Source of the DNA: Sphingomonas sp. 28-63-12
Lineage (GTDB): Bacteria; Pseudomonadota; Alphaproteobacteria; Sphingomonadales; Sphingomonadaceae
Length of the DNA stretch: 64,000 nucleotides
Direction of reading: 5' to 3'
Assembly (NCBI GenBank): GCA_002281535.1
Contig: NCGD01000017.1
Location: 62,001-126,000, forward strand
Positions 45,636-62,095 of the stretch are shown one piece after another. Numbering within the stretch: position 1 is the stretch's first letter; every line of letters begins with the position of its first letter. Position numbers and translations under genes: made by a program. The notes beneath the pieces are model-generated. The model did not search any database and was not told the DNA's origin. It saw only the letters and a program-made list of their open reading frames with translations.

Positions 45636-45730
45636 GGAGACGTGGGTGAGTGGCTGAAACCAGCGGTTTGCTAAACCGCCGTACCGGGTTTACTGGTACC
45701 GAGGGTTCCCATACCCATCCACGTCCACCA
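45636..45730 (+). tRNA. tRNA-Ser (GCU)-like gene, probably damaged 3' half
   Basis: The 5' part is a normal class II tRNA-Ser: GGAGACG, D-arm GGTGAGTGGCTGAAA, anticodon arm CGGTTTGCTAAACCG (GCU) and long variable arm GTACC...GGTAC. The 3' part is wrong: the acceptor strand before ACCA reads CACGTCC, giving only four of seven pairs with GGAGACG, and the T-arm GGGTTCCCATACCC lacks the GTTCGA pattern. An integrase remnant follows at once, so the 3' half may be an altered attachment site. A functional copy is probably elsewhere. Confidence 0.5.
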
Positions 45731-45795: not shown

Positions 45796-46563
45796 ATGCT
45801 CAGCGATGCGAAGGTTCGCGCCGCTAAGGCGCGGGATCGATCCGACAAGATTTCCAATACCAACCGGCTCTTTCTGCTCGTCACGCCCAGCGGCGGCAAG
45901 CTGTAGCGCCGGAACTATTATTACGACGGCAAGCAGAAGAGCATGGCGTTTGGTGCCTATCCGCTCGTCTCGTTGGCCACCGCCCGCGAGAAGGGGAACG
46001 AAGCCTATACTGTCCTCTGCGAAGGGCGGGACCCCGCGGTATTGAAGCGGCTCAAGGTCGAGGTGAACATCAAATCTGGCCGACAGACATTCAAGGGCAC
46101 CGCGCGTGCCTGGCACGAGAATTCGCGGCCGCAATGCGCAAAAGTCCATGCCGCGGATATCATCCGAAGCCTTGAGCGCGACGTTTCCCCGTCGATCGGG
46201 ACCCGGCAGATCGGCCAACTTACCCCGCCGCTGGGGCTCGGCGTCTTGCGCGCGATCGAGGCCGCGGGTCCGATCGCGACCGCCAAGCTGGTCCGGCAGC
46301 GAATTTCCGCCGTATTCGTCTATGTTATTGCCGAAGGCATCGCGCAGACTGATCGGGCCGAGAAGCGCGGCGCAATACGTAAGCGGCTCCACAACGGGCG
46401 CCAGTCCGCGATCGTCGATCTCGTGCCGCTGCGAACGATGATCATCACGGCGGGAGTGTATTATGCCCGCACGATCACGCGGCTGGCAATGCGTTTCCTG
46501 GTGCTGACCGCGGTGTGCCCAAGCGGACTACGCGGTGCAGTATGGGCTGGCCGGAAGTGCTGA
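45796..46563 (+). pseudogene. Tyrosine integrase pseudogene (DUF4102/P4-type)
   Basis: From ATG 45796 the frame reads MLSDAKVRAAKARDRSDKISNTNRLFLLVTPSGGKL, then TAG at 45904-45906 where relatives have Trp, then RRNYYYDGKQKSMAFGAYPLVSLATAREKGNEA, the DUF4102 N-terminal domain of P4-like integrases. The core-binding region follows (ARAWHENSRPQCAKVHAADIIRSLERDVSPSIG). The protein ends soon after LTAVCPSGLRGA, which holds the first catalytic Arg; the His-x-x-Arg and Tyr motifs are gone. It lies next to the tRNA-Ser-like sequence, the usual target of such integrases. Confidence 0.8.
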
Positions 46564-48046: not shown

Positions 48047-49231
48047 TCAGGGGCGCTGCGCGATCGCCAGGTCGCCGGCTATTGCCATGATCGCACGCGC
48101 GCGCTGGTGCGCCACTGCGCCGGCGGCGTTGATCGAGACGACGAAGCCGGCCTTTGCGGCCGGGCACCAAAAGGCTGCCGTCCCCCAATGGCCTTTATGC
48201 CCCCAGCACCGCGTCTTGCCGACCGCGATTGGTTCTATGCCAAGGCCATAGCCGATGCCTTCCTCGGGGGGCACCGGCCGGGTAGCCGGCGCCAGCATTA
48301 GCGCCAGCGTCTTGGGGCTATCGAAGACGCGTCCATCGAGCAGAGCCTGGAAGAAGGTCATGACGTCGCCAGCAGTGGCGACGAGACCGCCACCACCATG
48401 GATGTCGAAACTGGGGTTGATTGCGGCGGTGTCGACCCCATCCTGATAGGCATGCGCCCGGTTGGATGGGATTGCCGTGACGATGCCGTCGGGCACCGGC
48501 TCCCAATAGCTGTGATTGATCCCCAGTCGCGCAAAGCCGATCAGGGCCGGTACGGCGTCGCCCAATGACTGGCCGGTGCTGCGCTCTATAATCTCGCCGA
48601 TCAGCACATAGCCGGCATCACTATAGGCATAACTGGTATCGGGTGCGGCCAGCGGCGGGCCGTCTTCCATCGTCATCGCGATCTGTTCGGCCGGCGTCCA
48701 GCGATGGCCAGGGTCACTACCAACCGCCGTGTAATATGCGGCGGTCGTCGCATAATCGCGCAGCCCGGCGCGGTGAGTCAGCAAATTGGCAATCGTGATC
48801 CCGTCCGGATCATAGCCACCGCGCCGCAGCAGCGCAATCATTGGCGGGGACAGCCGATCAGCGATGCGATCGCCGAGATTGAGCCGGTGCTGCTCGACCA
48901 GCCGCAGCAGCGCGGCCGCGACATAGGTTTTGGTCACGCTGGCAATCCGGAATTCGTCGGCCGTGGCCAGCGCCGAGCCGCCCTTCGCGCGAACCCCAAT
49001 AACATGAGTCCAGTCGGGCTTGCCGGCATGGCGGACCAGCACGATCGCGCCCGGCACTTCGGGGCTGTTCGTCGCAACCGAATCGATTCGATCGGTCGCG
49101 GTGGTTGCTGGATGCGCATAAGCGCCAATCGAGGCGGACGCCGCCGCAACCGACAGCAGCAGCCACCGAACGCCGGGGGCCAGCATTCCTTGGCCAGCCT
49201 GTCGCTGATAGGCATTTTGCCGCTTGGTCAT
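48047..49231 (-). CDS. Secreted serine hydrolase, class C beta-lactamase fold
   Basis: A 394-residue exported hydrolase (hydrophobic leader WLLLSVAAASASIGAYAHP after a basic start; ATG for Met16 is an alternative). The active-site set is visible: S98-V-T-K101 in FRIASVTKTY, Y203-S-D in YAYSDAGYVL, and HKGHWG near residue 360 at the place of the third motif. Such proteins are esterases, D-aminopeptidases or D,D-peptidases more often than true beta-lactamases. A probable TetR operator lies 22 bases upstream, linking it to the acyl-CoA ligase operon. Confidence 0.9.
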   Translation of the reverse strand: MTKRQNAYQRQAGQGMLAPGVRWLLLSVAAASASIGAYAHPATTATDRIDSVATNSPEVPGAIVLVRHAGKPDWTHVIGVRAKGGSALATADEFRIASVTKTYVAAALLRLVEQHRLNLGDRIADRLSPPMIALLRRGGYDPDGITIANLLTHRAGLRDYATTAAYYTAVGSDPGHRWTPAEQIAMTMEDGPPLAAPDTSYAYSDAGYVLIGEIIERSTGQSLGDAVPALIGFARLGINHSYWEPVPDGIVTAIPSNRAHAYQDGVDTAAINPSFDIHGGGGLVATAGDVMTFFQALLDGRVFDSPKTLALMLAPATRPVPPEEGIGYGLGIEPIAVGKTRCWGHKGHWGTAAFWCPAAKAGFVVSINAAGAVAHQRARAIMAIAGDLAIAQRP

Positions 49232-49253: not shown

Positions 49254-49273
49254 TTATGAACTCCACGTCATAA
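49254..49273. promoter_or_regulatory. TetR operator candidate, site A
   Basis: TTATGAACTCCACGTCATAA: six-base inverted arms TTATGA/TCATAA with an eight-base spacer, upstream of the serine hydrolase start. It matches site B (50123-50142) at 14 of 20 positions, including the whole TATGAA and CGTCATAA ends. Confidence 0.65.
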
Positions 49274-49318
49274 TTAAATATCGGCCGCGGGGATGCAAGC
49301 GCGTTCAAGATCGGGAAA

Positions 49319-50038
49319 TCAGCCCGCAGGCAGGAAATCCAGCGCCAACGGGGCTTCGGAGGGATCGGGGGAGGCGCCGTAGAGCAGCCGATACCACAGG
49401 ACCGACAGCGTCTGGGCCAGGCGTTCACGACTGCGGGCCATGTCGCGCAAGTCGGCATTGTCATAGGAGACAATGCTCAGCAGCATCGAATCGATCATTG
49501 CCTGTGCGGCATGAGCGGTGATGATCCGGGCGGCGTCACTGCGCATGTCATCAGGCGCGCGGTGTGCCATGCCGACGGCGATGCGCCGGGCGACGAGACT
49601 GTTCATGTCGAGCCAGATGGCGCGCGCATCGGGCAGTTGATCGAGGATCTGAACGACCGCCCGGATCATGCCACCACTGTCGAGCATGATGTCGATATAG
49701 CGCCTAAGCGTATGTAAAACAGCGGCGAAATCACCAGCGGGTGCGCGCTCGGCGTAGATGGTGCCGATCGCCTCCTTGCACGCGGTGCGGAAGAGTTCGA
49801 TGGCCAGCTCGTCCTTGTCGCGGAAATAAATGTAGAAAACCCCGCTCGACAGCCCGGCCTGAGCGGCCACATCGCTGACCCGTATGGCGTGATAGCCGTC
49901 TCGTTCAAGCAGGATCCGACCGCTATCGAGCAGCCGCTGGCGCGTCCGCTCGCCCTTTGACAGCCCAGCATCGGGATTGTCGGTGGCCAGCCTACCGGGG
50001 GCAATGGCCTTGCGTCGTCCTTTGGTCAACGTCGCCAA
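49319..50038 (-). CDS. TetR/AcrR-family regulator 2
   Basis: A 239-residue TetR protein with a ~25-residue basic N-terminal extension. HTH: RTRQRLLDSGRILLERDGYHAIRVSDVAAQAGLSSGVFYIYFRDKDELAIELF. The C-terminal ligand domain is helical (YIDIMLDSGGMIRAVVQILDQLPDARAIWLDMNS). The gene lies between two near-identical inverted repeats: site A before the serine hydrolase and site B before the divergent MaoC operon. It is thus a good candidate to control both units and itself, perhaps in response to an acyl-CoA or acyl compound. Confidence 0.92.
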   Translation of the reverse strand: MATLTKGRRKAIAPGRLATDNPDAGLSKGERTRQRLLDSGRILLERDGYHAIRVSDVAAQAGLSSGVFYIYFRDKDELAIELFRTACKEAIGTIYAERAPAGDFAAVLHTLRRYIDIMLDSGGMIRAVVQILDQLPDARAIWLDMNSLVARRIAVGMAHRAPDDMRSDAARIITAHAAQAMIDSMLLSIVSYDNADLRDMARSRERLAQTLSVLWYRLLYGASPDPSEAPLALDFLPAG

Positions 50039-50122
50039 GGAGGTCCTTTCTGAAGCTCGTTGCGGCAGCTTACCGGAAGTTGGCGGCGAAGTTCAACGCC
50101 TACTCTTGCGGCAGCATAAAAA

Positions 50123-50142
50123 ATATGAATATGGCGTCATAA
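50123..50142. promoter_or_regulatory. TetR operator candidate, site B
   Basis: ATATGAATATGGCGTCATAA: arms TATGA/TCATA with eight-base spacer, 24 bases before the MaoC start and 84 bases before the tetR start on the other strand, in their shared promoter region. Pairs with site A. Confidence 0.65.
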
Positions 50143-50166
50143 AGATAGTATAAAGCGGAGCACTTG

Positions 50167-50649
50167 ATGGACGCCGGAATTCCTTTTGCAATCGGCGCGC
50201 CGATTGGGCCATCGGCCTGGGTGCAGCTGACCCAGGCGATGATCGATCGCTTTGGCGAAGTGACGCTCGATCCCGATCCGATGCACATCGATCCCGATTG
50301 GGCGCGGGCGCACAGCCCGTTCGGCGGGACGATCGCCTATGGCTTTCAAACGATGTCAATGCTCACCCATCTGCTTTACAGCGCCGCCGGCGAGGCCAAG
50401 AAGGACGATCCCGCCCGCTTCGGATCGTTCATCAACTATGGCATGAATCGGGTCAGGCTGATCAACCCGGTGCCTGCTGACAGCCGGATTCGCGCGACCT
50501 TCACCCCGGCCTCAACCCGCAGCGATGACCGTGGCCGCCAGATCGTGGTGTTCGACTGCGTCGTCGAGCGCGAGAATAGCGATCGTCCGGCGCTGGTAGG
50601 GGAATGGGTGTCGCTGTGGCTTCCGCCCGAAAGCAAGGTCGGCCAGTGA
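50167..50649 (+). CDS. MaoC-family (R)-specific enoyl-CoA hydratase-like protein
   Basis: A 160-residue single-hotdog protein. It has the MaoC active-site region LTQAMIDRFGEVTLDPDPMHIDPDWARAHSPFGGTIAYGFQTMSML, with the catalytic Asp/His placed as in the D-x4-H hydratase motif. It probably hydrates or dehydrates an acyl-CoA. ATG 50167 follows CGGAG. It is the first gene of an overlapping operon: its stop overlaps the transporter GTG (GTGA), and the acyl-CoA ligase follows, which suits a short acyl-CoA pathway. Site B precedes it. Confidence 0.88.
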   Translation: MDAGIPFAIGAPIGPSAWVQLTQAMIDRFGEVTLDPDPMHIDPDWARAHSPFGGTIAYGFQTMSMLTHLLYSAAGEAKKDDPARFGSFINYGMNRVRLINPVPADSRIRATFTPASTRSDDRGRQIVVFDCVVERENSDRPALVGEWVSLWLPPESKVGQ

Positions 50650-51917
50650 GTCGTTCGCGCGACCTGCAATATGCCCTTGGGGGCGCGGCCAGCGGACTGG
50701 CCTCGACCGTGCCGAGCGCGCTGCTGCTCTATTTCAGCACATCGGTGCTCGGGCTGGCGCCGGCGATCGTCGCGCTCATCCTGTTGCTGCCCAAGTTGCT
50801 CGCGATCATCGGTGATCCGCTTTGTGGCCAGTTGTTTGATCGCCTCGGTCAACGCCCGACGGCGCGGGCGATGCTGCTGGCGGCGGGCGGTACCGTAATG
50901 ATCGCCGGGCTGGCCTTGGTGTTTGCGCCGCCCGTGCTGGCAACGCTAGAAGCGACCGCATGGTGGCTCGCGATCGCCTATCTGGTGTTTTGCGGCGGCT
51001 ATTCGGCTTTCTCGGTGGCGCATATCGCGGGGCCGGCGGTTCTTTCCCGCAGCGCGGTGCACCGCGCCCGGTTGGTGGGCTGGCGCATGACGTCGGTGTT
51101 AATCGGCATCCTGATTGGTGCCGCGGGGGCGCCTTTGATCGTATCGGCAAGCGGCGGCGGGCGCTTTGGCTATGCCGTGATGGCCTTTGTGTCGGGTTGC
51201 GTGATCGCCCTGCTGATGATCGGCCCGGCGCGCGTTTATGAGCGCCGCCGTTTTGCATCATCACCGCGATCCGATGTCACAGCGCCGCTATGGGCGGCAT
51301 TCGGCGTTCCCGACTTTCGCAGGCTGGCGATGGGCTATGCCTTGATGATGGCGGCCGTGTCGGCCTTGACCGCAGCCACTCCTTATTGGGTGATCCAGCG
51401 CGGCGGCGAAGGCGATGTCGGCGTGTTGCTCGGACTGTTGTTGCTGACGAGTATCGCCACGGCACCGTTGTGGAGCCTGATCTGTCGATGGCGCGGCGAA
51501 CGCTTCGGCTATCGGTTGATGTTGTCGGGGTATCTGGGGCTGCCGGTGCTGCTCGGCTATGTGCTGGCAACGGGCGGCGCATGGCTGGGGCTGACAATCA
51601 GCTATGTCGGGCTGGGCGCTGCCTTTGGCGGGCTGCAGGTCGTGTCGTTTACGATGCTCGCCGGCCTGTCGAGCGCCGCCACGGTCGCTGCCGGCCAGCC
51701 GATGGACGGTGTCATCACCGGCGGCTGGACCGCGATGGAAAAGCTCGGGCTGGCGGTTGGCCCCGCGCTTGCGGCTGGATTGCTGGCGTTGACGGGCGGG
51801 CAAGCCGATCTGACCTTCAGCTTTGGCATTGCCGGCCTGCTCGCGCTCGCGGCTGGCATCGGCTGGGTGATTGAGTTGGGCCCGGTTTCACGCCACTCGC
51901 GCAGGATCATGGCATGA
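50646..51917 (+). CDS. MFS transporter, GPH (sugar-cation symporter)-like
   Basis: A 423-residue inner-membrane transporter with 12 predicted helices, resembling the glycoside-pentoside-hexuronide branch: SRSRDLQYALGGAASGLASTVPSALLLYFSTSVLGLAPAIVALILLLPKLLAIIGDPLCGQLFDRLG (GPH-type Asp in helix 2 region) and a second-half VPDFRRLAMGYALMMAAVSALTAATPYWVI. GTG 50646 overlaps the MaoC stop; the stop overlaps the ligase ATG. Substrate is probably the compound, or an acid derived from it, used by this cluster (inference). Confidence 0.88.
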   Translation: MSRSRDLQYALGGAASGLASTVPSALLLYFSTSVLGLAPAIVALILLLPKLLAIIGDPLCGQLFDRLGQRPTARAMLLAAGGTVMIAGLALVFAPPVLATLEATAWWLAIAYLVFCGGYSAFSVAHIAGPAVLSRSAVHRARLVGWRMTSVLIGILIGAAGAPLIVSASGGGRFGYAVMAFVSGCVIALLMIGPARVYERRRFASSPRSDVTAPLWAAFGVPDFRRLAMGYALMMAAVSALTAATPYWVIQRGGEGDVGVLLGLLLLTSIATAPLWSLICRWRGERFGYRLMLSGYLGLPVLLGYVLATGGAWLGLTISYVGLGAAFGGLQVVSFTMLAGLSSAATVAAGQPMDGVITGGWTAMEKLGLAVGPALAAGLLALTGGQADLTFSFGIAGLLALAAGIGWVIELGPVSRHSRRIMA

Positions 51918-53476
51918 CCGCGCAGCTCGATCCCGATCGTGCCTATCGACTGCACGATCTGGTGGCGCATTACGCTGTTGTCACGCCGCTGGCGGAAGCG
52001 TTGGTGCTCGGCGACCGCCGGTTCGACTATGCCGGGCAGGCGGCTGCGATCGATGCCCTTGCTGCGGCAATGATCGCCGCCGGGGTCGCCCGGGGGGACC
52101 GCGTTGCTGCACTTGAGCCGCCAGGGATCGATGCCTGGTTGAGCTTCTTGGCCTGCGCCTCGATCGGGGCGATCTGGGTCGGTCTCAACCCGCGCTATCG
52201 CTGGACCGAATTGCGCCATGTGCTTGGCGATGCTGATCCGACATTGGTGTTCGTTCGGCACGGCTACGCCGATGCGATTGATCCATATGGGCCTGAACTG
52301 GCGGGCAAGCCGCTGGTATGGACTGGCAGTGGCCGGACAGTGTCGCGCGGCTTATTGCTCGATGACTTTCTGGCGATTGGCCGAGCTATAGCGCCGGGCA
52401 TGCTGGCCGCGCGCCGCGCCGCGGTTGCGCCGCGCGACGCTTGTCTGCTGGTCTATACATCGGGCTCGACCGGCACGCCCAAGGGCGCGCTGCTACACCA
52501 TGAGGGGATTGTTGCCTTCGCGCTGCACCAGAATGCAATGTGGCCGGTCGATCCGTTTCGCGTGCTCAACTATCTGCCTGTCAATCATATCGGCTGTATT
52601 GTCGATATCGGCGCGGCGGCACTGGCGGCCGGCGGAGCCATGGTATTTCTTGAACAATTCGATCCGGCGACTTCGCTGGGGCTCATGGCCGCCGAACGGA
52701 TATCAGTCTGGGGATCGGTCCCAAGCGTCTTCCGCATGCAACTTGACGACCCGAGCTTCGTGACGACCAATCTGTCGGCGGTGCAGCTGATCGTCTGGGG
52801 AGGGGCGGCGATGGGGATCGACCTGATCGACACGCTGGCGCGGTTCTGCCCCCGGCTCGCCACCAATTACGGCATGACCGAAACGTCGAGCGCGATTACG
52901 GCACTGGCGCCGACCGATGACCGCGAGCTGCTCGCCGGATCGGTGGGCGAACCATTGTCTGGTGTCGAGGTCAGGCTGGCCGGCGAAGCAGGACCAGTCG
53001 AACAGCCTGAAGTGCCGGGGGAGGTGCTGACCCGGTCGCGGCTCAATTTCCTTGGCTATTGGCGCAATCCGGCAGCGACGGCGGCTGCTTTTGATGCAGA
53101 CGGCTATTTCCGCACCGGCGATGTCGGCATGTGGCGCGAGGATGGCCGGCTGGCATTGGTCGGGCGGACCAAGGAGATGTTTAAATCGGGCGGCTATAAT
53201 GTCTATCCGCTTGAAATCGAGCAGGTGATCGAGGCGCATCCAGCGGTGGCGATGGTGGCCGTGGTCGGCAAGCCCGATCCGCTCTGGCAGGAGGTCGGCT
53301 GCGCCTTTGTCATGCCGCGAGACACCGTTACCGTTGATGGGCTGCTTGACTGGTGCCGCACACGGCTGGCGAATTACAAGATCCCCAAGCAGGTGGTGAT
53401 CGTCGAGATGATGCCGCTGTTGCCGATCGGCAAGATCGACAAGGCAGCGCTCAAACGCCGCGCCGCCTTGTGCTAG
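51914..53476 (+). CDS. AMP-dependent acyl-CoA synthetase/ligase
   Basis: Activates a carboxylic acid to its CoA thioester using ATP. The 520-residue ANL-superfamily product has the P-loop LLVYTSGSTGTPKGALLHHEG, the ATP-binding NYGMTETSSAITAL, YFRTGDVGMWREDGRLALVGRTKEMFKSGGYNVYPLEIEQVI, and the catalytic Lys of LPIGKIDK near the end. It is translationally coupled to the transporter (ATGA). Resembles fatty-acid or aromatic-acid ligases; the specific acid cannot be read from the sequence. Confidence 0.94.
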   Translation: MTAQLDPDRAYRLHDLVAHYAVVTPLAEALVLGDRRFDYAGQAAAIDALAAAMIAAGVARGDRVAALEPPGIDAWLSFLACASIGAIWVGLNPRYRWTELRHVLGDADPTLVFVRHGYADAIDPYGPELAGKPLVWTGSGRTVSRGLLLDDFLAIGRAIAPGMLAARRAAVAPRDACLLVYTSGSTGTPKGALLHHEGIVAFALHQNAMWPVDPFRVLNYLPVNHIGCIVDIGAAALAAGGAMVFLEQFDPATSLGLMAAERISVWGSVPSVFRMQLDDPSFVTTNLSAVQLIVWGGAAMGIDLIDTLARFCPRLATNYGMTETSSAITALAPTDDRELLAGSVGEPLSGVEVRLAGEAGPVEQPEVPGEVLTRSRLNFLGYWRNPAATAAAFDADGYFRTGDVGMWREDGRLALVGRTKEMFKSGGYNVYPLEIEQVIEAHPAVAMVAVVGKPDPLWQEVGCAFVMPRDTVTVDGLLDWCRTRLANYKIPKQVVIVEMMPLLPIGKIDKAALKRRAALC

Positions 53477-53489
53477 GATAGCAGCCATC

Positions 53490-54533
53490 ATGTCTGTCCA
53501 GTCTGAGCCGGTTGCCCGGGCCGCTATTCGCGTGCGTCTGACTGTGCCTGGCGACGCGGCGGCGGTGCTTGCGCTCGCGCGCAAGGCTGGCAGCGGCTTT
53601 ACCAGCCTGCCCGCGGACCCCGACGCCGTCGCCGCCCGCATTGCAGCCTCGCAGTACGCCGCGACATCATCGCTGCCAACCAGCGACGGCCAATATTGGT
53701 TTGTCGCCGAGCAGATTTCGAGCGGCGCCATTCTCGGTTGCGCGGCGATTTTTGCGCAGACCGGCCAACCCTGGCCCTTTTACAGCTTTCGCCGCAGCGT
53801 GCTGCATCACGCTTGTCCCGAGCTCAATATCGCGACCCAGGTGGGCCTCCTGACGATGGTCAATGATCTCGGCGGGTCGACCGAAGTTGGTGGCTTGCTG
53901 GTCGATCCGGCGGCGCGCGGGATGCAGGTGGGGGCGCTGCTGGCGCGAGCGCGCTATATGTTCATGGCGGCATCGCCTGATCGCTTTGCGCACCGCGTCT
54001 TCGCCGAAATGCGGGGCTGGCAGGATGAATCGGGCACATCGCCCTTCTGGGAATCGCTCAGCGGTCGCTTCATCCCGATGCGTTTTGCCGAGGCTGATGC
54101 TTATGGCGGCATCCACGGCAACCGCTTCATCGCTGATCTGCTGCCCAAGCTGCCCATCTATGAAACGATGCTGACCGAACAAGCCCGCGCCGCGATTGGC
54201 AGGCCGCACCGCGACAGCGCGCGCGCGGTGGCGCTGCTCGAACAAGAGGGGTTCCGCCATGACGGGCTGGTCGATGTGTTCGACGCCGGGCCGTGCATGA
54301 CCTGCGCCTTTGCCGATATCGCCACGATTCGCGATCGCCGGGTTGGCCTTGCTAAAGCGGGTGGCGACGATGTGCCAGCGATGCTGATCGCGTGCGGGGC
54401 GCTGGTCGATTTCATGGCGACGATCGCGCCGGGCAGGATCGACGGGCGCGATATCGATATTGCCGCGTGCCATCTCGCCACGATCGGCGCCGTAGCAGGT
54501 GACGAGATCGCTGCATCGCCGTGGCAGCGTTGA
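53490..54533 (+). CDS. Arginine N-succinyltransferase (AstA)-family acyltransferase
   Basis: A 347-residue AstA-family protein, GNAT-like fold, which in the known pathway transfers succinyl from succinyl-CoA to arginine. Family blocks: AIRVRLTVPGDAAAVLALARKAGSGFTSLPADPDAVAARI, CPELNIATQVGLLTMVNDLGGSTEVGGLLVDPAARGMQVGALLARARYMFMAA, FAEMRGWQDESGTSPFWESLSGRFIPMRFAEAD, ending DVFDAGPCMTCAFADIATIRD. No other ast genes are nearby, so another amine or amino acid is probably acylated. It starts 13 bases after the ligase and converges on the acylase gene. Confidence 0.88.
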   Translation: MSVQSEPVARAAIRVRLTVPGDAAAVLALARKAGSGFTSLPADPDAVAARIAASQYAATSSLPTSDGQYWFVAEQISSGAILGCAAIFAQTGQPWPFYSFRRSVLHHACPELNIATQVGLLTMVNDLGGSTEVGGLLVDPAARGMQVGALLARARYMFMAASPDRFAHRVFAEMRGWQDESGTSPFWESLSGRFIPMRFAEADAYGGIHGNRFIADLLPKLPIYETMLTEQARAAIGRPHRDSARAVALLEQEGFRHDGLVDVFDAGPCMTCAFADIATIRDRRVGLAKAGGDDVPAMLIACGALVDFMATIAPGRIDGRDIDIAACHLATIGAVAGDEIAASPWQR

Positions 54534-54536
54534 GGA

Positions 54537-56834
54537 TCAGTGGCGTCCATCGGTGTTCAGCACCAGCGTGGATTCGATATGGTGCCGGAGATCCTCGAAA
54601 CTGAGCCAGTTCGGGCGCAGCTTGCGATCGGAAAGCAGTTGGAACTGATCCATGCCGTGGCGCGAGGCCGGGTCTTCGCTGATGCCATAAGCGAGCGCCG
54701 AATAGCTGCTGCCGCTACCATAATCGACGACATAGAGCCGGGTTTGCGCGAACAGTGTGTATTTGCGGCCATCGGCATCGGGCTGCGGCGAAAAGCCGTT
54801 GAGCATCAGCGTCTGTTCCGACGAACTGAACCCCAGGCCGCCGATATCCGCCCAGAACCGGTCGGGCAGGTCGAAGCCGGCCAGGAACGCTGCGCCATTG
54901 GCCGGGAGCGAGTGGCCCGGCGTGCCCAGCCGATAGAGCGCGCCATAGCCATGATCAATTCCCCCCAGCACCTTGACCAGATTGTCGCGTACGCTGGCCA
55001 AACATTCTACCAGCAGGGCGGTATCCGGCGCGGATAGCGCTTCACCGTGATCGATCGCAATGACGATCCGGTCGACATCGGCGGGATGAGTGAGCGCGAG
55101 CATCTGTCGAAACTCAGCGAAGTAAAGCGCGGCCCGGGAGTCGCGATTGAAGTCGCCATTGAACTCGCCAAGTGCGGCGAGCATTTTGACCAGATCGGCC
55201 GGTGCGTCGGTCGGCAGGTCGTTGGCCAGTCGTGCGAATACCGGCTGCCAGCGATCGGTGCCGACAAGATGGGTATCGAGCGCGACCTTGACGGCGTCAT
55301 CGATCGTGAAACCAGTCGATCCCGCAAGCAATTCAAGCGCGCGGCGCTGGCGCGTGTTATTGCGCTGATAGACGTTGAACCCGAAATAACGCGGATAGCG
55401 TGCCCAACGGCGATCGTCATCGTCGGGCCAGAAGCTGGGCGGCGGGATATTCGAGAGCGAGAAATATTGCTGCGGGGGCCGCTCGACAAAGGGCAGGTCG
55501 CGGAGCGGGTGGATGCCGCGCCATAATGTGGCGCTGCTGTTGCCCGGCGACGGGGCGGCCGGATCGGCGGTACCGTCTCGGAGCGGCTGGCGCGCGGGCC
55601 TGAGCCAGAACGATCCCTCGTCAGGCGTGGAGACCAGATAATTGTCCCAGGCATACCAGTTGTTACCGGCGAACCCGGCCTTCAGCCCCGCGAGCGTGCG
55701 CTGAACCGCCAGATTGCGTTCGGGATCGAGCGACAGACCCTGACGGCCGGCCATCGCCCAGCTCCAAGCATAGGCGGTGTTGCCTTGGCGCGCCATGACG
55801 GGGGTACGGACGCCATTATGGTGGGTCAGCTCGACATCGTAAGCGATGGGCGTTTCGCCGCGGACGGGAATCTCATAATGCTCCACCGTCATGCGGCGGC
55901 GCGTGCCGTCGAAGCGATAGGCGCGGGGATCATCAGGCTCGGTGGTCACGGCGTAGCAGGTCGCATTGACGTCGTCCGACGTCGTCGCCCCCCACGCGGC
56001 ATGCGGGGTGAATCCCTCGCCGTAAATCTGCGAGGGCAGGGTGAAGTTGAGATAGTCGAGCGCGCCCGCTTTGAGGTGAACGGCATAATAGCTCGGCCCG
56101 AGCGTGAACGGGTCCCAATGCGGATCGCTCAGGTGGATCGTTTTGCCACTGGCGGTATGGCGGCCCCAGACCGACCAGAGATTGGACTGGCTCGGCGTGG
56201 CTGCGGCCGGCGTCTCTGCGCCATGACATCCGCGCGCCGATTGCGCTTCGCCGGCGCGCCACGCCATCAGCAGGGCTGGTTCGATTTGATCCGGGCGCAG
56301 CCCCCAGGCTGGGCGCTCGGCGGGATGCTCGATCAGATAGTGACGAAACCCGGCGACGAATGCGGACAGATTGGCCCGATTTTGCGGGCTGAGCCTGGCA
56401 AAATTGGCGCGGGCAGCCGGCAGCCAGGCCATCGCGCGGGCAAGCTTGTCTGAAGCGATCGGATCGGTGATGAAATGCGAGGCCCAGGAGCGTTCGACCT
56501 GGCCGATAAAGCTGTCATCAAAGCCATTGGCGCGGGTGACCACCTTGCGACCGAAGGTGGCTGCAAGGTCGCCCCGGATCATTACCCAGTGGAGCATCGT
56601 CTGACGCATCCGATCATGCGCCAGCGCATAACCGAAACCGAAAAAGCCATCGGCTTCGCGGGCGGCATAGACATGCGGCATGCCATAGTCGTCGCGGATG
56701 ATGGTCACCTTGCCATTGGTGAGGCGCGGTGGTGCCCCGTCGGCGTTCGAGCGGGGCGCCGCGACGGCAAGGCTGCTGCTGCAGACGATGATGGCGGTCC
56801 AGCCGGCAACCCCGCGCATACTGGCATTTGGCAT
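54537..56834 (-). CDS. Penicillin acylase-family N-terminal-nucleophile amidohydrolase
   Basis: A 765-residue secreted Ntn-hydrolase that cleaves N-acyl bonds (relatives: penicillin G acylase, AHL acylases, cephalosporin acylases). Signal peptide GVAGWTAIIVCSSSLAVAAP; alpha part starts VTIIRDDYGMPHVYAAREADGFFGFGYALAHDRM; the predicted autocleavage nucleophile is Ser217 in SQSNLWSVWGRHTASGKTIHLSDPH. Beta-chain Asn in FAGNNWYAWDNY region and the C-terminal DYGSGSSYSALAYG/SYSALAYGISEDPASRHG block follow. Proform is complete. It is divergent from the tautomerase operon across a perfect 18-bp palindrome. Confidence 0.92.
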   Translation of the reverse strand: MPNASMRGVAGWTAIIVCSSSLAVAAPRSNADGAPPRLTNGKVTIIRDDYGMPHVYAAREADGFFGFGYALAHDRMRQTMLHWVMIRGDLAATFGRKVVTRANGFDDSFIGQVERSWASHFITDPIASDKLARAMAWLPAARANFARLSPQNRANLSAFVAGFRHYLIEHPAERPAWGLRPDQIEPALLMAWRAGEAQSARGCHGAETPAAATPSQSNLWSVWGRHTASGKTIHLSDPHWDPFTLGPSYYAVHLKAGALDYLNFTLPSQIYGEGFTPHAAWGATTSDDVNATCYAVTTEPDDPRAYRFDGTRRRMTVEHYEIPVRGETPIAYDVELTHHNGVRTPVMARQGNTAYAWSWAMAGRQGLSLDPERNLAVQRTLAGLKAGFAGNNWYAWDNYLVSTPDEGSFWLRPARQPLRDGTADPAAPSPGNSSATLWRGIHPLRDLPFVERPPQQYFSLSNIPPPSFWPDDDDRRWARYPRYFGFNVYQRNNTRQRRALELLAGSTGFTIDDAVKVALDTHLVGTDRWQPVFARLANDLPTDAPADLVKMLAALGEFNGDFNRDSRAALYFAEFRQMLALTHPADVDRIVIAIDHGEALSAPDTALLVECLASVRDNLVKVLGGIDHGYGALYRLGTPGHSLPANGAAFLAGFDLPDRFWADIGGLGFSSSEQTLMLNGFSPQPDADGRKYTLFAQTRLYVVDYGSGSSYSALAYGISEDPASRHGMDQFQLLSDRKLRPNWLSFEDLRHHIESTLVLNTDGRH

Positions 56835-56910
56835 CGTCGCTTGCTCTCCCCATGTCAGCCGGGGGCGCCGCGCCCCGCCACCATGATCTCGTCGTCATCG
56901 TAACGAATGT

Positions 56911-56928
56911 TACTTGTGATCACAAGTA
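56911..56928. promoter_or_regulatory. Perfect 18-bp palindrome in divergent acylase/tautomerase promoter
   Basis: TACTTGTGATCACAAGTA reads the same on both strands, with a central GATC. It lies 77 bases before the acylase start and 94 before the tautomerase start. Length and centre resemble lux/tra-type boxes bound by LuxR-family proteins; GntR-type operators are another possibility. The LuxR-type gene at 60337 is a candidate binder. Confidence 0.65.
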
Positions 56929-57021
56929 TTGAGACCTATGCAATCCCGATCGCATGCCGGTGGTGTCGGGGAGCCGTCGTCGCCATGATGCGACGACTGG
57001 GTCGACGAAACGGAGTTTGCC

Positions 57022-57474
57022 ATGCCCCTTCTCCAGATCCGGCTGACGCCGGGCTGCTTTGACAACGCCCAGCGGGATCGTTTTGTCGCGGCAGTTTCTG
57101 CCGCTGCGGCAGCGGCGGAATCGCTAGCCGATACGCCGGTCGCGCGGCTGCGGACGGTGGCGCTGGTCGAGCAACTCGCGCCTGGTCATTTCTATCTGGG
57201 CGGACAATCGGGCGATCAGCTGGCGCGTGGGGCCTTCGTCCTGTGGCAAGTCAGCGCGGGGGTGCTCGACGGTGCCCGCAAGGCACGCTTTGCCGCCGCT
57301 TTGCAGGCCGCCGCCGACGCCGAAGGCGGCGATGATCCGCGCACGTTGATTACCTCCTGCGTGATCGACGAGGTGCCCGAGGGACAATGGGCACAGAACG
57401 GCACGATCCGGCGGCTGCCCGAAGCGGCAGCGCTGGCCGGCTTCACCCATCTTGCCGATATCGCCCTGCCATGA
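57022..57474 (+). CDS. Tautomerase-superfamily protein
   Basis: A 150-residue protein beginning Met-Pro (MPLLQIRLTPGCFDNAQRDRFVAAVSAAAAAAESL), so removal of Met would expose the N-terminal Pro that serves as catalytic base in 4-oxalocrotonate tautomerases. The length and the second beta-alpha-beta unit (GAFVLWQVSAGVLDGARKARFAAALQAAADAEGG) suit a fused-repeat tautomerase rather than the ~62-residue form. Its TGA overlaps the ATG of the PLP enzyme gene (ATGA). Likely isomerises a keto/enol intermediate made by that operon (inference). Confidence 0.75.
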   Translation: MPLLQIRLTPGCFDNAQRDRFVAAVSAAAAAAESLADTPVARLRTVALVEQLAPGHFYLGGQSGDQLARGAFVLWQVSAGVLDGARKARFAAALQAAADAEGGDDPRTLITSCVIDEVPEGQWAQNGTIRRLPEAAALAGFTHLADIALP

Positions 57475-58607
57475 GCCCGACCGAAGCGCAGGCCCGCGCG
57501 CTGATCGGCGAGCCGCGATCGCGATGGCGGCTGCCAACGCCCGCGCTGATCCTCGATCTCGATCGGCTCGAGGCCAATATTCGCCAGTTGGGCAAGTTGA
57601 CCGCCGGCCATCCGGTCCAGCTGCGCCCCCACGCCAAGTCGCACAAATCGAGCCTGATCGCGGCGGCCCAGATTGCTGCCGGTGCGGTCGGGATCTGCTG
57701 CGCCAAGCTTGGCGAGGCCGAGGCATTAGCGGCGGCAGGGATCGGCGATATCCTGGTGACATCGCCGATTGCGAGCGATGATGTCGCCTGGCGGGCGGCA
57801 GCGCTGGCGCATGATTGCCGGGCGCTCGCGGTGGTCGTCGATCATGAGATCGGTCTCACCGCATTGATTGCCGCCGCAGAGGCCCAAGGGGTGGCGATCG
57901 ACGTGCTGATCGACGTCGATGTCGGGCTTGGCCGAACCGGCGTATCGAGCGCCGCCGCCGCGCTGGCGCTCGCAAGGGTGATCGCGCAATCGCCGATGTT
58001 GCGGCTGCGCGGGGTGCAGGGCTATGGCGGCCATTGGCAGCATCTTCGGGGCGCGGACGCGCGGCTTGATGCCGTGCGGGCGGGCATGGATCGATTGACT
58101 GACATCGTCTTTGCCTTGCGGCTGGCCGGTCATCCGTGCCCGGTGATCAGCGGCGGCGGGACCGGGACGCTCGCCGCCGATCTCGCGATTGGCGTGCTGA
58201 CCGAGCTTCAGCCCGGCTCCTATATCTTCATGGACGCCCAATATACCGATGCTCTCGCCGCCGATTCGGTGTTTTCGACCAGCCTGTTCGTCCAGGCCCA
58301 GGTGGTCAGCGTCAACGCGCCGGCCTGGGTCACGGTCGATGCCGGGCTAAAGGCTTTCGCCGCCGACGGGCCGATGCCGCGTGCTGTTGGGCCGCTTTTC
58401 GGCGATACCAGCTATCTCTTTTTTGGCGATGAGCATGGGATGGTATCGCGTCCGCAAGGGGACTTTAGCACTCGCCCGGGCGAGCGGATCGAATTCGTCA
58501 CCCCGCACTGCGATCCGACCGTCGATCGCTATGATTTTTTTCATATTGTCCGGGGCGACACGCTGGTAGCCATCGAACCGATCGATGCCGCGCGCCGATC
58601 GCAGTGA
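57471..58607 (+). CDS. DSD1-family PLP enzyme (D-threonine aldolase/D-serine dehydratase-like)
   Basis: A 378-residue fold-III (alanine racemase-like) PLP enzyme acting on D-amino acids. Features: RLPTPALILDLDRLEANIRQLG, the PLP-lysine segment LRPHAKSHKS (Lys56 or Lys59), GICCAKLGEAEALAAAG, ISGGGTGT (phosphate loop), LQPGSYIFMDAQY, and the metal-ligand segment TPHCDPTVDRYD near the C-terminus. Relatives cleave D-threonine-type beta-hydroxy amino acids or dehydrate D-serine. Coupled to the tautomerase gene; its presence suggests the pathway handles a D- or beta-hydroxy amino acid. Confidence 0.9.
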   Translation: MSPTEAQARALIGEPRSRWRLPTPALILDLDRLEANIRQLGKLTAGHPVQLRPHAKSHKSSLIAAAQIAAGAVGICCAKLGEAEALAAAGIGDILVTSPIASDDVAWRAAALAHDCRALAVVVDHEIGLTALIAAAEAQGVAIDVLIDVDVGLGRTGVSSAAAALALARVIAQSPMLRLRGVQGYGGHWQHLRGADARLDAVRAGMDRLTDIVFALRLAGHPCPVISGGGTGTLAADLAIGVLTELQPGSYIFMDAQYTDALAADSVFSTSLFVQAQVVSVNAPAWVTVDAGLKAFAADGPMPRAVGPLFGDTSYLFFGDEHGMVSRPQGDFSTRPGERIEFVTPHCDPTVDRYDFFHIVRGDTLVAIEPIDAARRSQ

Positions 58608-58630
58608 GGCGTGGCCAACACATGACGCGA

Positions 58631-60259
58631 TCAGCCGCGCGGCGCAAACCGCCGGGCAGCACCGCGCTTGTCGCGGAGGTCGCGCAGAATTTCATGCGCG
58701 GCATTGTGCCCCGGCATGCCGGTCACGCCGCCGCCGGGGTGGGTGCCGGACCCACACATATAGAGTCCAGCGACCGGGCTGCGATAATCAGCATAACCCA
58801 GTGCCGGGCGCGCGCTATAGAGCTGATCCAGCGACAGCGCGCCGTGGAAGATATCGCCGCCGACCAGCGCCAGCTTGCGCTCAAGATCGAGCGGCGACAG
58901 GATCATCCGGCCTTCGATCGCACCTTTGAAATTGGGGGCGTAGTTGGCGACGGTATCGATCACCAGATCGGCGACTTTTTCACGGTGATCGTCCCAGCTC
59001 GATCCGTCGGGCAGGGTCGGGGCGAATTGCTGGCAGAACAGGCTGGCGACATGCTTGCCGGGCGGGGCAAGGCTGTCATCGAGCACGCTTGGCACGTGCA
59101 TCTCGATCGCCGGCCGCGCCGACCAGCCATCGCGCCGGGCGTCGCTATAGGCCGTGTCGAGATAGTCGAGCGAGGGCGCAATAACGATGCTGGCGCCGTG
59201 GTGCTCGGCGGCGCCGTTGCTCGGCAGGCACGAGAAATTGGGCAATTCGCTGAGCGCGACATTCATCCGAAAGGTGCCGGATCCGCAGCGCCAGCCTTCC
59301 ATCCGCTCGATCAGCCGGGGCGGCAGATGCGCGTCATCGACGAGCTTGCCGAACAGCAGCTTGGGATTGACGTTCGAAATGACGGTTTTGGCATCGATCT
59401 GCTGGCCATTATCGAGGATGATGCCCTGTGCCCGGCCGCGGATGATTTTCACCTCGCGCACCGCCGCTTCGGTATGGATCGTCACCCCGGCGGCGATGCA
59501 GGCGCGGCCCATCGCGCGGGTAATCGCGCCCATCCCGCCAATCGCATGACCCCAGGCGCCGCGAATGCCGTTGACCTCGCCAAAAACATGGTGGAGCAGC
59601 ACATAGGCAGAGCCCGGGTGATAGGGGCTGGCATAATTGCCGATCACCGAATCGAAGCCGAGCAGGCCTTTCAGCGCGTCGGTCTCGAACCATTGGTCGA
59701 GAATGTCGCCGGCCGAGCGGCCGAACATTTCGAGCAGGTCGCTTTGCGCCTGGATGCCGAGCTTGCGGGCGCGGTTGCCGAGCGTGATTGCGCCGATCAG
59801 GTCACTGATGCCGCCATTCACTTCGGGCGGGGTTTCCAGCAGAATCGAGCGGACGAAATCGACCATCGCGTCGAGCCGGTGGTGGAATTCGGGCAGCCGT
59901 TCGGCATCGCGCGCCGACCAGCGTGCCACTTCGCGGGCCGAGCGATCGGCGTCGCGATCGAGGATCAGATAACGCTGGTCGTCGACCGGCGAGAAATAGG
60001 ACAGCGGCCGCAGCACGATGCGCAGCCCGTGTTCGGCGAGCCGCAGATCGGCCATCACCTTGGGGTTGAGCAGGCTGACCGAATAGCTCGCCACCGAATT
60101 GCGAAAGCCGGGATGAAATTCCTCGGTGATCGCCGCGCCGCCGACGATTTCGCGGCGTTCGAATATGCCGACGCGGAAGCCGGCACGCGCGAGATAATAA
60201 GCGCAGACCAGCCCATTATGGCCGCCACCGATGATCACTGCATCATAATCGACCGCCAT
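58631..60259 (-). CDS. FAD-dependent oxidoreductase, PYROXD2/phytoene-desaturase-like
   Basis: A 542-residue amine-oxidase-superfamily flavoprotein. It has the N-terminal FAD dinucleotide fold DAVIIGGGHNGLVCAYYLARAGFRVGIFERREIVGGAA, the mid MGAITRAMGRACIAAGVTIHTEAAVREV block, and the C-terminal LYMCGSGTHPGGGVTGMPGHNAAHEIL that closes the FAD site. The GGGHNGL...GGGVTG pattern is that of the PYROXD2-like group, not carotenoid desaturases, and no carotenoid genes are near. It converges on the PLP-enzyme gene and is divergent from the LuxR-type regulator. Confidence 0.9.
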   Translation of the reverse strand: MAVDYDAVIIGGGHNGLVCAYYLARAGFRVGIFERREIVGGAAITEEFHPGFRNSVASYSVSLLNPKVMADLRLAEHGLRIVLRPLSYFSPVDDQRYLILDRDADRSAREVARWSARDAERLPEFHHRLDAMVDFVRSILLETPPEVNGGISDLIGAITLGNRARKLGIQAQSDLLEMFGRSAGDILDQWFETDALKGLLGFDSVIGNYASPYHPGSAYVLLHHVFGEVNGIRGAWGHAIGGMGAITRAMGRACIAAGVTIHTEAAVREVKIIRGRAQGIILDNGQQIDAKTVISNVNPKLLFGKLVDDAHLPPRLIERMEGWRCGSGTFRMNVALSELPNFSCLPSNGAAEHHGASIVIAPSLDYLDTAYSDARRDGWSARPAIEMHVPSVLDDSLAPPGKHVASLFCQQFAPTLPDGSSWDDHREKVADLVIDTVANYAPNFKGAIEGRMILSPLDLERKLALVGGDIFHGALSLDQLYSARPALGYADYRSPVAGLYMCGSGTHPGGGVTGMPGHNAAHEILRDLRDKRGAARRFAPRG

Positions 60260-60336
60260 GTGCTTTCCCCCTCCAGTGCCTGTTCGCGGGATAGCGAGCG
60301 CCGGGCGGGGCGAAAATACCCCCAGGGGAGGAGGCG

Positions 60337-61149
60337 TTGAGTGCTATCCATGCCTCCATCGCCACATTGGCGATCCCGATCATCCAGCAGGTTGCAACGC
60401 CGCATTTCTATCGCGCGCTGGCGAGCGGTTTGCGGGCTGCGTTCGATGGCGATGGGGTCACAATTCTTCATCATCAGCGGCACCGCCTGCCACGGATTAT
60501 TTTCGATGACTTTGCGCCAGAGGCGCGCGCTGGGCTCGCCCGCTATGTCCACTCGACGCATCGCCATGACCCGTTTGTGGCGGCGCTGGACTGGCGCAAG
60601 CCAGCCTGGGTGTACCGGTTGGGTGCATTGCCGCGCTTTTCAGTCGCCGGCGGGGCTGGGTTGTTGATCGACCCGCGCGAGGAGATTGGCTATCGCACGG
60701 TCGGCTGGCCATGTCGGCAATCGGAAATCGGCGCGGCCATCCCCGTCGGCAGCAACGACCTGCTGCAGATCGCGCTTTACCGGCAGGGCGCCTTCGAGGG
60801 CGAAGTCGTGCAGGCGCTTGCCGCCTGTTTGCCGATGCTCAGCGCAGCAATCGGCCGGCACCGCGGCTGGTGTGCGCCGGGATTGCCTTCTGCCCGGGCG
60901 GCCGGGCTGACGCGCCGCGAACGCCAGGTCATCGCGCAGGTACTTCGCGGCAATTCGTCAACGGCAATCGCCGAATTGCTGGGAATCTCGTGCCTGACGG
61001 TGAAAGCGCATCGCAAGAATGCCTACCGCAAGCTGGGGGTAGACACACTTGCCGGACTGTTCGCGCTGTTCAGTGGCCCCGGCGATACCGAACGATCGTT
61101 GCTCCACCCCCGCGACCCAGGAAGAGACGATGCAGTACAGCCCCTTTGA
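60337..61149 (+). CDS. LuxR-type HTH regulator without an AHL-binding signature
   Basis: A 270-residue regulator starting TTG at 60337, after GGGAGGAGG. The C-terminal HTH is a clear LuxR/GerE domain (GLTRRERQVIAQVLRGNSSTAIAELLGISCLTVKAHRKNAYRKLGVDTLAGLFALF, about residues 190-245). The N-terminal ~180 residues (ATPHFYRALASGLRAAFDGDGVTILHH...) lack the Trp/Tyr/Asp set of autoinducer domains and may be a GAF-like sensor. Its last 20 bases overlap the next gene. Candidate controller of the acylase/PLP genes. Confidence 0.85.
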   Translation: MSAIHASIATLAIPIIQQVATPHFYRALASGLRAAFDGDGVTILHHQRHRLPRIIFDDFAPEARAGLARYVHSTHRHDPFVAALDWRKPAWVYRLGALPRFSVAGGAGLLIDPREEIGYRTVGWPCRQSEIGAAIPVGSNDLLQIALYRQGAFEGEVVQALAACLPMLSAAIGRHRGWCAPGLPSARAAGLTRRERQVIAQVLRGNSSTAIAELLGISCLTVKAHRKNAYRKLGVDTLAGLFALFSGPGDTERSLLHPRDPGRDDAVQPL

Positions 61150-62095
61150 TTCGGTAATCGATGCAATCGGATCAACCCCGCTTGTCCGGTTGGATCGGCT
61201 TGTCGCCGCGCATGGCCTGAAGGGCACGATCCTGGCCAAACTCGATTATCTCAATCCGGGATCGTCGAAAAAGGACCGGGCGGCGCGCGCGATCATTGAG
61301 GCGGCCGAACGAGAGGGTGAGTTGCAGCCGGGCCAGACCGTGGTTGAGCTGACATCGGGCAATATGGGGACCGGGCTGGCGATCGTCTGCGCAGTGAAGG
61401 GCTATCGCTTCGTCGCGGTGATGTCGAAGGGCAATTCGCCCGAGCGCGCGCGAATGATGCGGGCGCTTGGCGCCGAAGTCGTGCTGGTCGATCAGCAGCC
61501 GGGATCGGTGCCGGGGCAGGTGTCGGGCGATGATCTGGCGCTGGTCGAGGCCGAAGCGGTCCGGCTGACCCGCGAACGCAGCGCCTTCCGCGCCGACCAG
61601 TTTCACCGTGAAGCGAGCTGGCGCGGGCATTTTGAAACGACCGGGCCCGAACTCTGGACGCAGAGCGGCGGTGCAATTGATGCCTTTGCCGATTTCCTCG
61701 GCTCGGGTGGCACCTATGCGGGGGTGACGCTTGCGCTAAAGGCTCGCGACCCGGCAATTGCCTGTTATGTCGTCGAGCCGGTCGGGGCGGCGGTGGTGGC
61801 GGGCGAGGGGGTGACCGCGCCGGACCATCCGATTCAGGGCGGGGGCTATGCGATGCCCGATCTGGCGCTGCTGCGCGGCGTGCCGATCAATGGCTTTGTC
61901 CAGGTCACGGGCGCGGACGCGATGGGCACCGCGCGCCGGCTCGCCGCGATCGAGGGGATTTTCGGCGGCTTTTCGGGCGGCGCCAATGTCGCCGCTGCTT
62001 TGCAGCTGCTTGCCGGACCGCTGAGCGGCACGACGATCGCGGTGCTGATCTGCGATTCGGGAATGAAATATCTCTCGACGGATTTGTGGGGCTGA
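61130..62095 (+). CDS. Cysteine synthase-like fold-II PLP enzyme
   Basis: A 321-residue beta-family PLP enzyme (cysteine synthase, cystathionine beta-synthase and relatives). Features: IGSTPLVRLDRLV, LAKLDYLNPGSSKKDRAARAIIEAAE with the PLP Lys, ELTSGNMGTGLAIVCAVKGY (Asn contacts PLP), GSGGTYAGVTLAL (phosphate loop) and the later GGFSGGANVAA. The LDYLNPGSSKKDR reading differs from typical CysK (LEFFNPxxSVKDR), so beta-replacement or beta-elimination on another substrate is likely. ATG 61130 lies inside the end of the LuxR gene, so they form one unit. Confidence 0.88.
   Translation: MQYSPFDSVIDAIGSTPLVRLDRLVAAHGLKGTILAKLDYLNPGSSKKDRAARAIIEAAEREGELQPGQTVVELTSGNMGTGLAIVCAVKGYRFVAVMSKGNSPERARMMRALGAEVVLVDQQPGSVPGQVSGDDLALVEAEAVRLTRERSAFRADQFHREASWRGHFETTGPELWTQSGGAIDAFADFLGSGGTYAGVTLALKARDPAIACYVVEPVGAAVVAGEGVTAPDHPIQGGGYAMPDLALLRGVPINGFVQVTGADAMGTARRLAAIEGIFGGFSGGANVAAALQLLAGPLSGTTIAVLICDSGMKYLSTDLWG

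Follow-up and report, generated by a model that had tools for sequence, protein, structure and literature searches.

The stretch of DNA analyzed here (the window) comprises 64,000 nucleotides of contig NCGD01000017.1 (positions 62,001 to 126,000; assembly GCA_002281535.1) from Sphingomonas sp. 28-63-12, and the subject is a set of eleven adjacent genes, A to K, at window positions 49254-62095, together with the palindromes that front them. A prediction made earlier from the sequence alone (the original prediction) had treated these genes as one system in which an N-acyl compound is split outside the cytoplasm, the acid is activated to its coenzyme A (CoA) ester and oxidized, and the released amino acid is handled by pyridoxal 5'-phosphate (PLP) enzymes. 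Domain scans (Pfam and profiles) recover all eleven genes as open frames at that place with the expected domains, and most had been named correctly. The tight operons that had been described are also evident: B and C overlap (GTGA, with the start of C at 50646), as do C and D (ATGA), G and H (ATGA), and J and K, and the gap between D and E is 13 bp.

Genes of the ligase operon and of the acylase half

Adjoining the interval on the minus strand lies a gene for a D-peptidase-like S12 serine hydrolase (48047..49231; Pfam Beta-lactamase, 1e-49) with a signal-like N-terminus by eye, whose best PDB matches are a D-Ala-D-Ala carboxypeptidase, an alkaline D-peptidase, and an S12 peptidase. The interval as first drawn starts on a copy of the palindrome described below as palindrome 1 but excludes this S12 gene behind it. 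Gene A (49319..50038, minus strand) encodes a TetR regulator (Pfam TetR_N, 6.9e-12) and lies between two copies of that palindrome. The plus-strand operon that follows begins with B (50167..50649), a MaoC hydratase that is Rv0130-like by profile and structure-sequence match and in which the Asp and His of what we take to be the hydratase motif are aligned. It continues with C (50646..51917), an MFS_2 or GPH-type transporter (Pfam MFS_2, 1.6e-32), and D (51914..53476), an AMP-binding acyl-CoA ligase whose best solved match is FadD13. Gene E (53490..54533, plus strand) encodes a strongly diverged AstA-family acyltransferase, as judged from profile scores and from a tree in which it occupies a very long branch. 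It passes the cut-off of the AOST subfamily (315 vs 284.35) but does not reach that of the AstA equivalog (271.7 vs 391), and it lies outside any ast operon, whereas a separate AstA elsewhere in the same genome is encoded beside an AstB-like gene (AstB by eye). The best orthologue of E stands at 49% in 249 family genomes and at 43% among 11 loci of genome contigs.

The acid had been expected to be oxidized by the interval's own genes. Domain scans of genes from 46 to 64 kb gave no match to an acyl-CoA dehydrogenase or a thiolase in the interval, so that oxidation would need enzymes from elsewhere. This bears on the nearest described cluster found, bsd I of Caenibius tardaugens, which, in the available part of its description, combines TetR, a CoA ligase, a MaoC-like hydratase, and hydrolases (an amidohydrolase and an esterase-like hydrolase) in one sphingomonad cluster, with palindromes proposed as TetR sites (PMC12882949). 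By analogy, the hydrolase at the present locus could free a bulky acid (a steroid or similar) from a conjugate for CoA activation and beta-oxidation under TetR control, an explanation that we consider unlikely. Ligase D does score on the FadD3 and CasG models, but under their cut-offs, and the S12 protein resembles a D-peptidase. Further, bsd I as described in that part of the source differs in its palindromes and includes a monooxygenase along with an acyl-CoA dehydrogenase pair, whereas the window has the S12 hydrolase, the MFS_2 transporter, and the AstA-like protein. No match to the Scd4AB-type acyl-CoA dehydrogenase of bsd I was found among the genes scanned (46 to 64 kb) and none to a monooxygenase in the interval; no search was made for steroid genes in the rest of the genome.

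Convergent with the ligase operon, and 3 bp from it, lies F (54537..56834, minus strand), a penicillin-acylase-family Ntn hydrolase (Penicil_amidase) with a signal-like N-terminus by eye. It is like cephalosporin acylase, its nearest relative among solved structures, and like PvdQ in family and in carrying a serine (Ser217) aligned at the start position of the beta-chain, but its 62.8 bits do not reach the PvdQ cut-off of 950. In 298 family genomes (E up to 1e-22) the best near-full-length match outside this genome stands at 28%; matches among 61 relatives are mostly partial, at up to 34% over 356 residues with higher values confined to short pieces, and on plasmids 80% of F is covered in 2 of 48 records, at 25.8% and 23.7%.

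The plus-strand pair beyond F consists of G (57022..57474), a tautomerase-superfamily protein with a weak Pfam match (4.8e-6), a Pro after the Met, and a best PDB match of 4.9e-4, and H (57471..58607), a PLP enzyme of the D-threonine aldolase or D-3-hydroxyaspartate aldolase type. No relative of G at 1e-6 was present in 150 other genomes of the genus, and plasmids gave no match to it. The earlier label of H as a DSD1-type enzyme agrees with its family domains (Ala_racemase_N and D-ser_dehydrat), but H is closer to the two aldolases than to D-serine dehydratase. Aligned to 4v15 over most of its length, it has the Lys of HAKxHK and the HxD pair, presumably the PLP lysine and the metal pair of enzymes of the D-threonine aldolase type. 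In contrast to BhcC, with which this likeness is also shared, H reaches 268.6 bits against an equivalog cut-off of 690, and no other bhc gene was recognized in the interval.

Utilization of a beta-lactam can proceed through ring opening, side-chain release, and side-chain activation. A penicillin-acylase-family protein beside S12 proteins, nearest to cephalosporin acylase at that, would suit such a route, with the lactamase-fold hydrolases opening the ring, F freeing the side chain, and D activating it. The S12 protein at 48047-49231, however, is nearest to D-Ala carboxypeptidase and D-peptidases, and the best 25 of the 105 model matches of D include none to a phenylacetate-CoA ligase; we regard beta-lactam use as very improbable.

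Two palindromes and an apparent accessory block

Two exact copies of TATGA-N8-TCATA (palindrome 1) occur in the window. Copy a (49255..49272) lies 23 bp before the start codon of the S12 gene and copy b (50124..50141) 25 bp before the ATG of the MaoC gene at 50167, and this palindrome before both thus ties the ligase module to the D-peptidase-like S12 gene. With at most one mismatch allowed, the window holds three matches against 0.31 expected, a number reached in 0 of 100 shuffles. Across the whole genome (3.48 Mb), the relaxed form WATGA-N8-TCATW (the W form) is found at 7 places, 3 of which are exact TATGA/TCATA, with 2 of these at the present locus; the adjoining genes of two of the five other sites, those inspected (L242 and L245), have no evident relation. 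The region between F and G has a two-mismatch match only, and the promoters at I-J, at the downstream TonB gene, and at a second acylase gene (below) have none.

The space between F and G instead holds palindrome 2, TACTTGTGATCACAAGTA (56911..56928), a perfect palindrome of 18 bp. Its core, TGTGATCACA, has one copy in the window, where 0.02 would be expected, and a second in the adjoining 31 kb, placed 46 bp before a row of BKACE, DgcN, DgcA, and TonB genes 20 kb downstream. Over 95,014 bases of the contig this core was counted twice, as against two copies in 2,102,454 bases of other loci. The common core therefore ties the acylase and the PLP enzyme pair to the D-glutamate row, in which BKACE, DgcN, and DgcA, named from NCBIfam scores, follow one another at L021:11481-14523 (window coordinates 73481-76523). 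DgcA passes its equivalog cut-off (407.6 vs 400), and a GntR protein adjoins the D-glutamate genes. The gene dgcN is presented as the key gene of a racemization pathway for D-acidic amino acids in the available part of one source (PMC12363236). The adjacency of DgcN and DgcA here, with a palindrome core in common with the acylase promoter, is a likeness to that pathway. The same stretch also encodes a second acylase, which has 31% identity to F, and contains three additional S12-domain frames, one of which starts in the window. A span of 23 kb takes in 4 of the 13 S12 matches of the genome, with a chance probability by simulation of 0.0007, or of 0.03 if the tandem pair is counted as one. Two observations on this stretch stand by themselves. 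The BKACE of the row scores above the cut-off of 3,5-dioxohexanoate:acetyl-CoA acetone transferase, an unusual enzyme to find next to D-glutamate genes, and the frame at L021:6813-9161 is an S12 hydrolase fused to a VanX-like D-Ala-D-Ala dipeptidase domain.

Beyond H lie three genes for which no link to the others was found: I (58631..60259, minus strand), a CrtO-like flavin adenine dinucleotide oxidoreductase identified by profile scans; J (60337..61149, plus strand), a LuxR-type regulator with a GerE domain; and K (61130..62095, plus strand), a beta-cyanoalanine/cysteine-synthase-like PLP enzyme (PALP) that scores 264 bits on beta-cyanoalanine synthase (6pmu) vs 197 bits on the next cysteine synthase. 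The two palindromes and these unlinked genes divide the set, and the eleven genes do not look like one unit. The claim of shared promoters, whose sense had not been spelled out, survives insofar as each kind of palindrome ties separate promoters together. A single pathway, in which acylase, ligase, MaoC, and the PLP enzymes would successively process a single N-acyl compound, is accordingly given a small chance: the genes are all adjacent and tightly packed, with F and the ligase operon convergent, but the two halves are fronted by different palindromes, I, J, and K stand apart, G was not found in the other genus genomes, and relatives of most members of the set do not occur together (below).

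The whole set apparently sits in an accessory block behind a tRNA-Ser (GCT) gene (45636..45730, plus strand; ARAGORN), the probable insertion point. Upstream of this tRNA, the window's first 45 kb consist of core genes, as read by eye. Downstream of it lies the stop-interrupted remnant of a decayed tyrosine integrase (45796..46563, plus strand), whose arm-binding and central domains were matched (Phage_int_M, 4.2e-23, and Arm-DNA-bind_3, 1.3e-5, within 45943-46560) and whose catalytic domain was not, and past this remnant the genes look accessory up to the contig end. No repeat of the tRNA 3' end, at 14 bp or longer, was detected on the right-hand side up to the contig end. It is possible, with a probability that we put clearly below that of the interpretation given later, that unrelated accessory genes have gathered at a tRNA hotspot and that the TetR-linked module is the only real unit. 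The integrase remnant and the lack of G relatives in the genus favor this, as does the best relative of K in a 149-genome family sample, which adjoins an ArdC-like frame (named by eye) and is thus perhaps on a mobile element. The common TGTGATCACA cores and the clustering of S12 matches speak against it.

Recurrence of the transporter-centered module

The original prediction had named a lack of conserved co-occurrence as its own refutation. Relatives of the MFS protein C were sought in a genus sample (E up to 1e-40) and a family sample (E up to 1e-35) and were present in 3 of 200 other genomes of the former and in 9 of 297 other genomes of the latter (12 places). All 15 places were read, up to 20 kb each, with relatives called by BLAST at 1e-12 and with S12 and TonB reference proteins verified by Pfam; controls were 19 neighborhoods (20 had been requested) at fixed offsets chosen by the analyst. 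It should be noted that the 15 neighborhoods are not independent, as one genome (G301) gives three, another (G145) two, and others come from close relatives.

Relatives of both MaoC and the ligase stand beside the C relative in 12 of the 15 neighborhoods, and all four of TetR, MaoC, MFS, and ligase are found in 10, with TetR about 7 kb away in one of them (L160). S12 hydrolases are present in 12/15 vs 3/19 controls (Fisher 0.0002) and TonB receptors in 12/15 vs 4/19 (Fisher 0.0008); these counts include the sources of the reference proteins (L098-L100), and without them both stand at 9/12. S15 hydrolases occur in 5/15 vs 0/19 controls, an H-type enzyme in 2/15, M55 in 2/15, and DgcA with DgcN in 1/15. 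Relatives of the AstA-like, tautomerase, CrtO-like, LuxR, and PALP genes were absent from all 15 neighborhoods at the BLAST threshold above, an acylase was present in 3 (one of these, compared with F, is 28% identical), and the full eleven-gene set was absent from every neighborhood read. Conserved co-occurrence thus holds for a core and fails for the set as a whole. A single conserved eleven-gene system is rejected on the basis of these neighborhoods and of the lack of G relatives in the genus genomes.

The palindromes recur with the module. The W form is found at the module promoter in L099, L152, L154, L160, and L224, and with one mismatch in L098. In L099 a further W-form site precedes S12, and in L160 one precedes a TonB frame by 17 bp. 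Sites with one mismatch precede TonB in both L098 and L099, and L224 has a site some 550 bp ahead of a TonB frame. Outside module loci, a single W-form site was counted in 1,657,133 bases of other loci, from which short copies of module loci had been removed. In L155, L157, L159, and L161 a different perfect palindrome, TTGAATTTAAATTCAA, occupies the promoter position, related sites with mismatches precede a TonB gene, and L100 and L158 have a third type; by eye, the TetR recognition helices fall into the same groups as the palindromes. Some members of the group L155, L157, L159, and L161 have thiolase- or dehydrogenase-like neighbors (by eye), perhaps for bulky acids.

In L099, the module adjoins an H-type gene, an M55 D-aminopeptidase gene, and an M81/MlrC-like gene. 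A search of the present genome for MlrC (M81) gave no match, and 14 control genomes were likewise without one. Relatives of all four module genes, with MFS in two pieces, also lie within 11 kb on a plasmid of Novosphingobium sp. THN1, a strain described as a microcystin degrader in the available part of its report (PMC6167471).

Two putative regulons and their predicted substrates

From the genes, the rarity of the palindromes, and the recurrence of the module we infer, with about even confidence, that two catabolic regulons under separate control are each represented in part in the interval, along with three unlinked genes, inside the tRNA-Ser accessory block, and that the two regulons would together degrade acylated compounds containing D-amino acids; the operators, all of the reactions, which way control runs, and the class of substrate are predicted from sequence. 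In the first putative regulon, TetR protein A would act through TATGA-N8-TCATA on the S12 gene and on the MaoC-MFS-ligase-AstA-like operon. The D-peptidase-like S12 hydrolase would free an acid, which the MFS protein would import and ligase D would convert to its CoA ester, and MaoC would then hydrate or dehydrate this ester, with general beta-oxidation completing the breakdown. In the second, a regulator, with the GntR protein that adjoins the D-glutamate genes as a candidate, would act through palindromes with a TGTGATCACA core on F, on the pair of tautomerase and D-beta-hydroxy-amino-acid aldolase, and on the BKACE-DgcN-DgcA-TonB row. The chemistry points to acylated compounds that carry D-residues: the S12 protein is near D-peptidases, and acylase F, aldolase H, the D-glutamate genes, ligase D for acid activation, and a MaoC of Rv0130-like type are all at hand. 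The chemistry proposed earlier thus retains its parts (an acylase with a signal-like N-terminus, a CoA ligase with MaoC, and a PLP enzyme of the D-beta-hydroxy-amino-acid type), but not as a single system in that order. The DgcN/DgcA pathway is not known to include either an acylase or an aldolase.

Several observations weigh against this two-regulon interpretation. The count of palindrome 1 came after the motif had been spotted by eye, three module groups show other palindromes or none found, and no TonB gene here carries palindrome 1, unlike in some relatives. The palindrome 2 copies have only the 10-bp core in common, in a scan that covered 95,014 bases of this genome, and DgcN, a near full-length match, scores narrowly below its NCBIfam cut-off (449 vs 480). 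Additionally, neither penicillin acylases (3/15 vs 1/19 controls) nor D-aminoacylase-like proteins (3/15 vs 0/19, or 1/19 controls under a looser grouping) are significantly enriched beside C relatives. The module was found in none of the 28 H-type neighborhoods read (of 77 distinct places outside this genome, with one split gene counted twice), and L099, which has both, was counted in the other set.

A narrower proposal, which we hold to be improbable, would make the block a lipopeptide-degrading island with two palindrome-defined regulons, in which S12 D-peptidases and acylases split N-(3-hydroxyacyl) D-residue peptides. The (R)-3-hydroxy acids would pass to the ligase and MaoC, D-allo-threonine or D-serine-like residues to the aldolase, and D-glutamate to DgcN/DgcA. 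Its bolder part, included in the same low estimate, would have the AstA-like protein E N-acylate the freed D-amino acid for racemase turnover, a role like the one proposed for DgcN on D-glutamate.

The gene set combines known enzyme families in a new way; a keyword search of the literature, with most subscription journals and preprints outside its coverage, returned no description of it. If the two-regulon interpretation is correct, WATGA-N8-TCATW before MaoC/MFS/ligase modules, S12 genes, and TonB genes would be a DNA signature for uncharacterized catabolic regulons in the family to which the window belongs, one of them on the plasmid of Novosphingobium sp. THN1. It would also tie an orphan acylase to the use of D-amino acids, with the question of its substrate open to induction assays.

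Two features further down the contig complete the description of the locus. At L022:4600-6845, a zinc-type dehydrogenase gene adjoins a gene of the class I/II aminotransferase fold, a pair that by eye corresponds to threonine dehydrogenase and 2-amino-3-ketobutyrate ligase. Near the contig end, L022:8416-12708 encodes a repeat protein of 1430 aa with a calcium-binding/FG-GAP appearance by eye.

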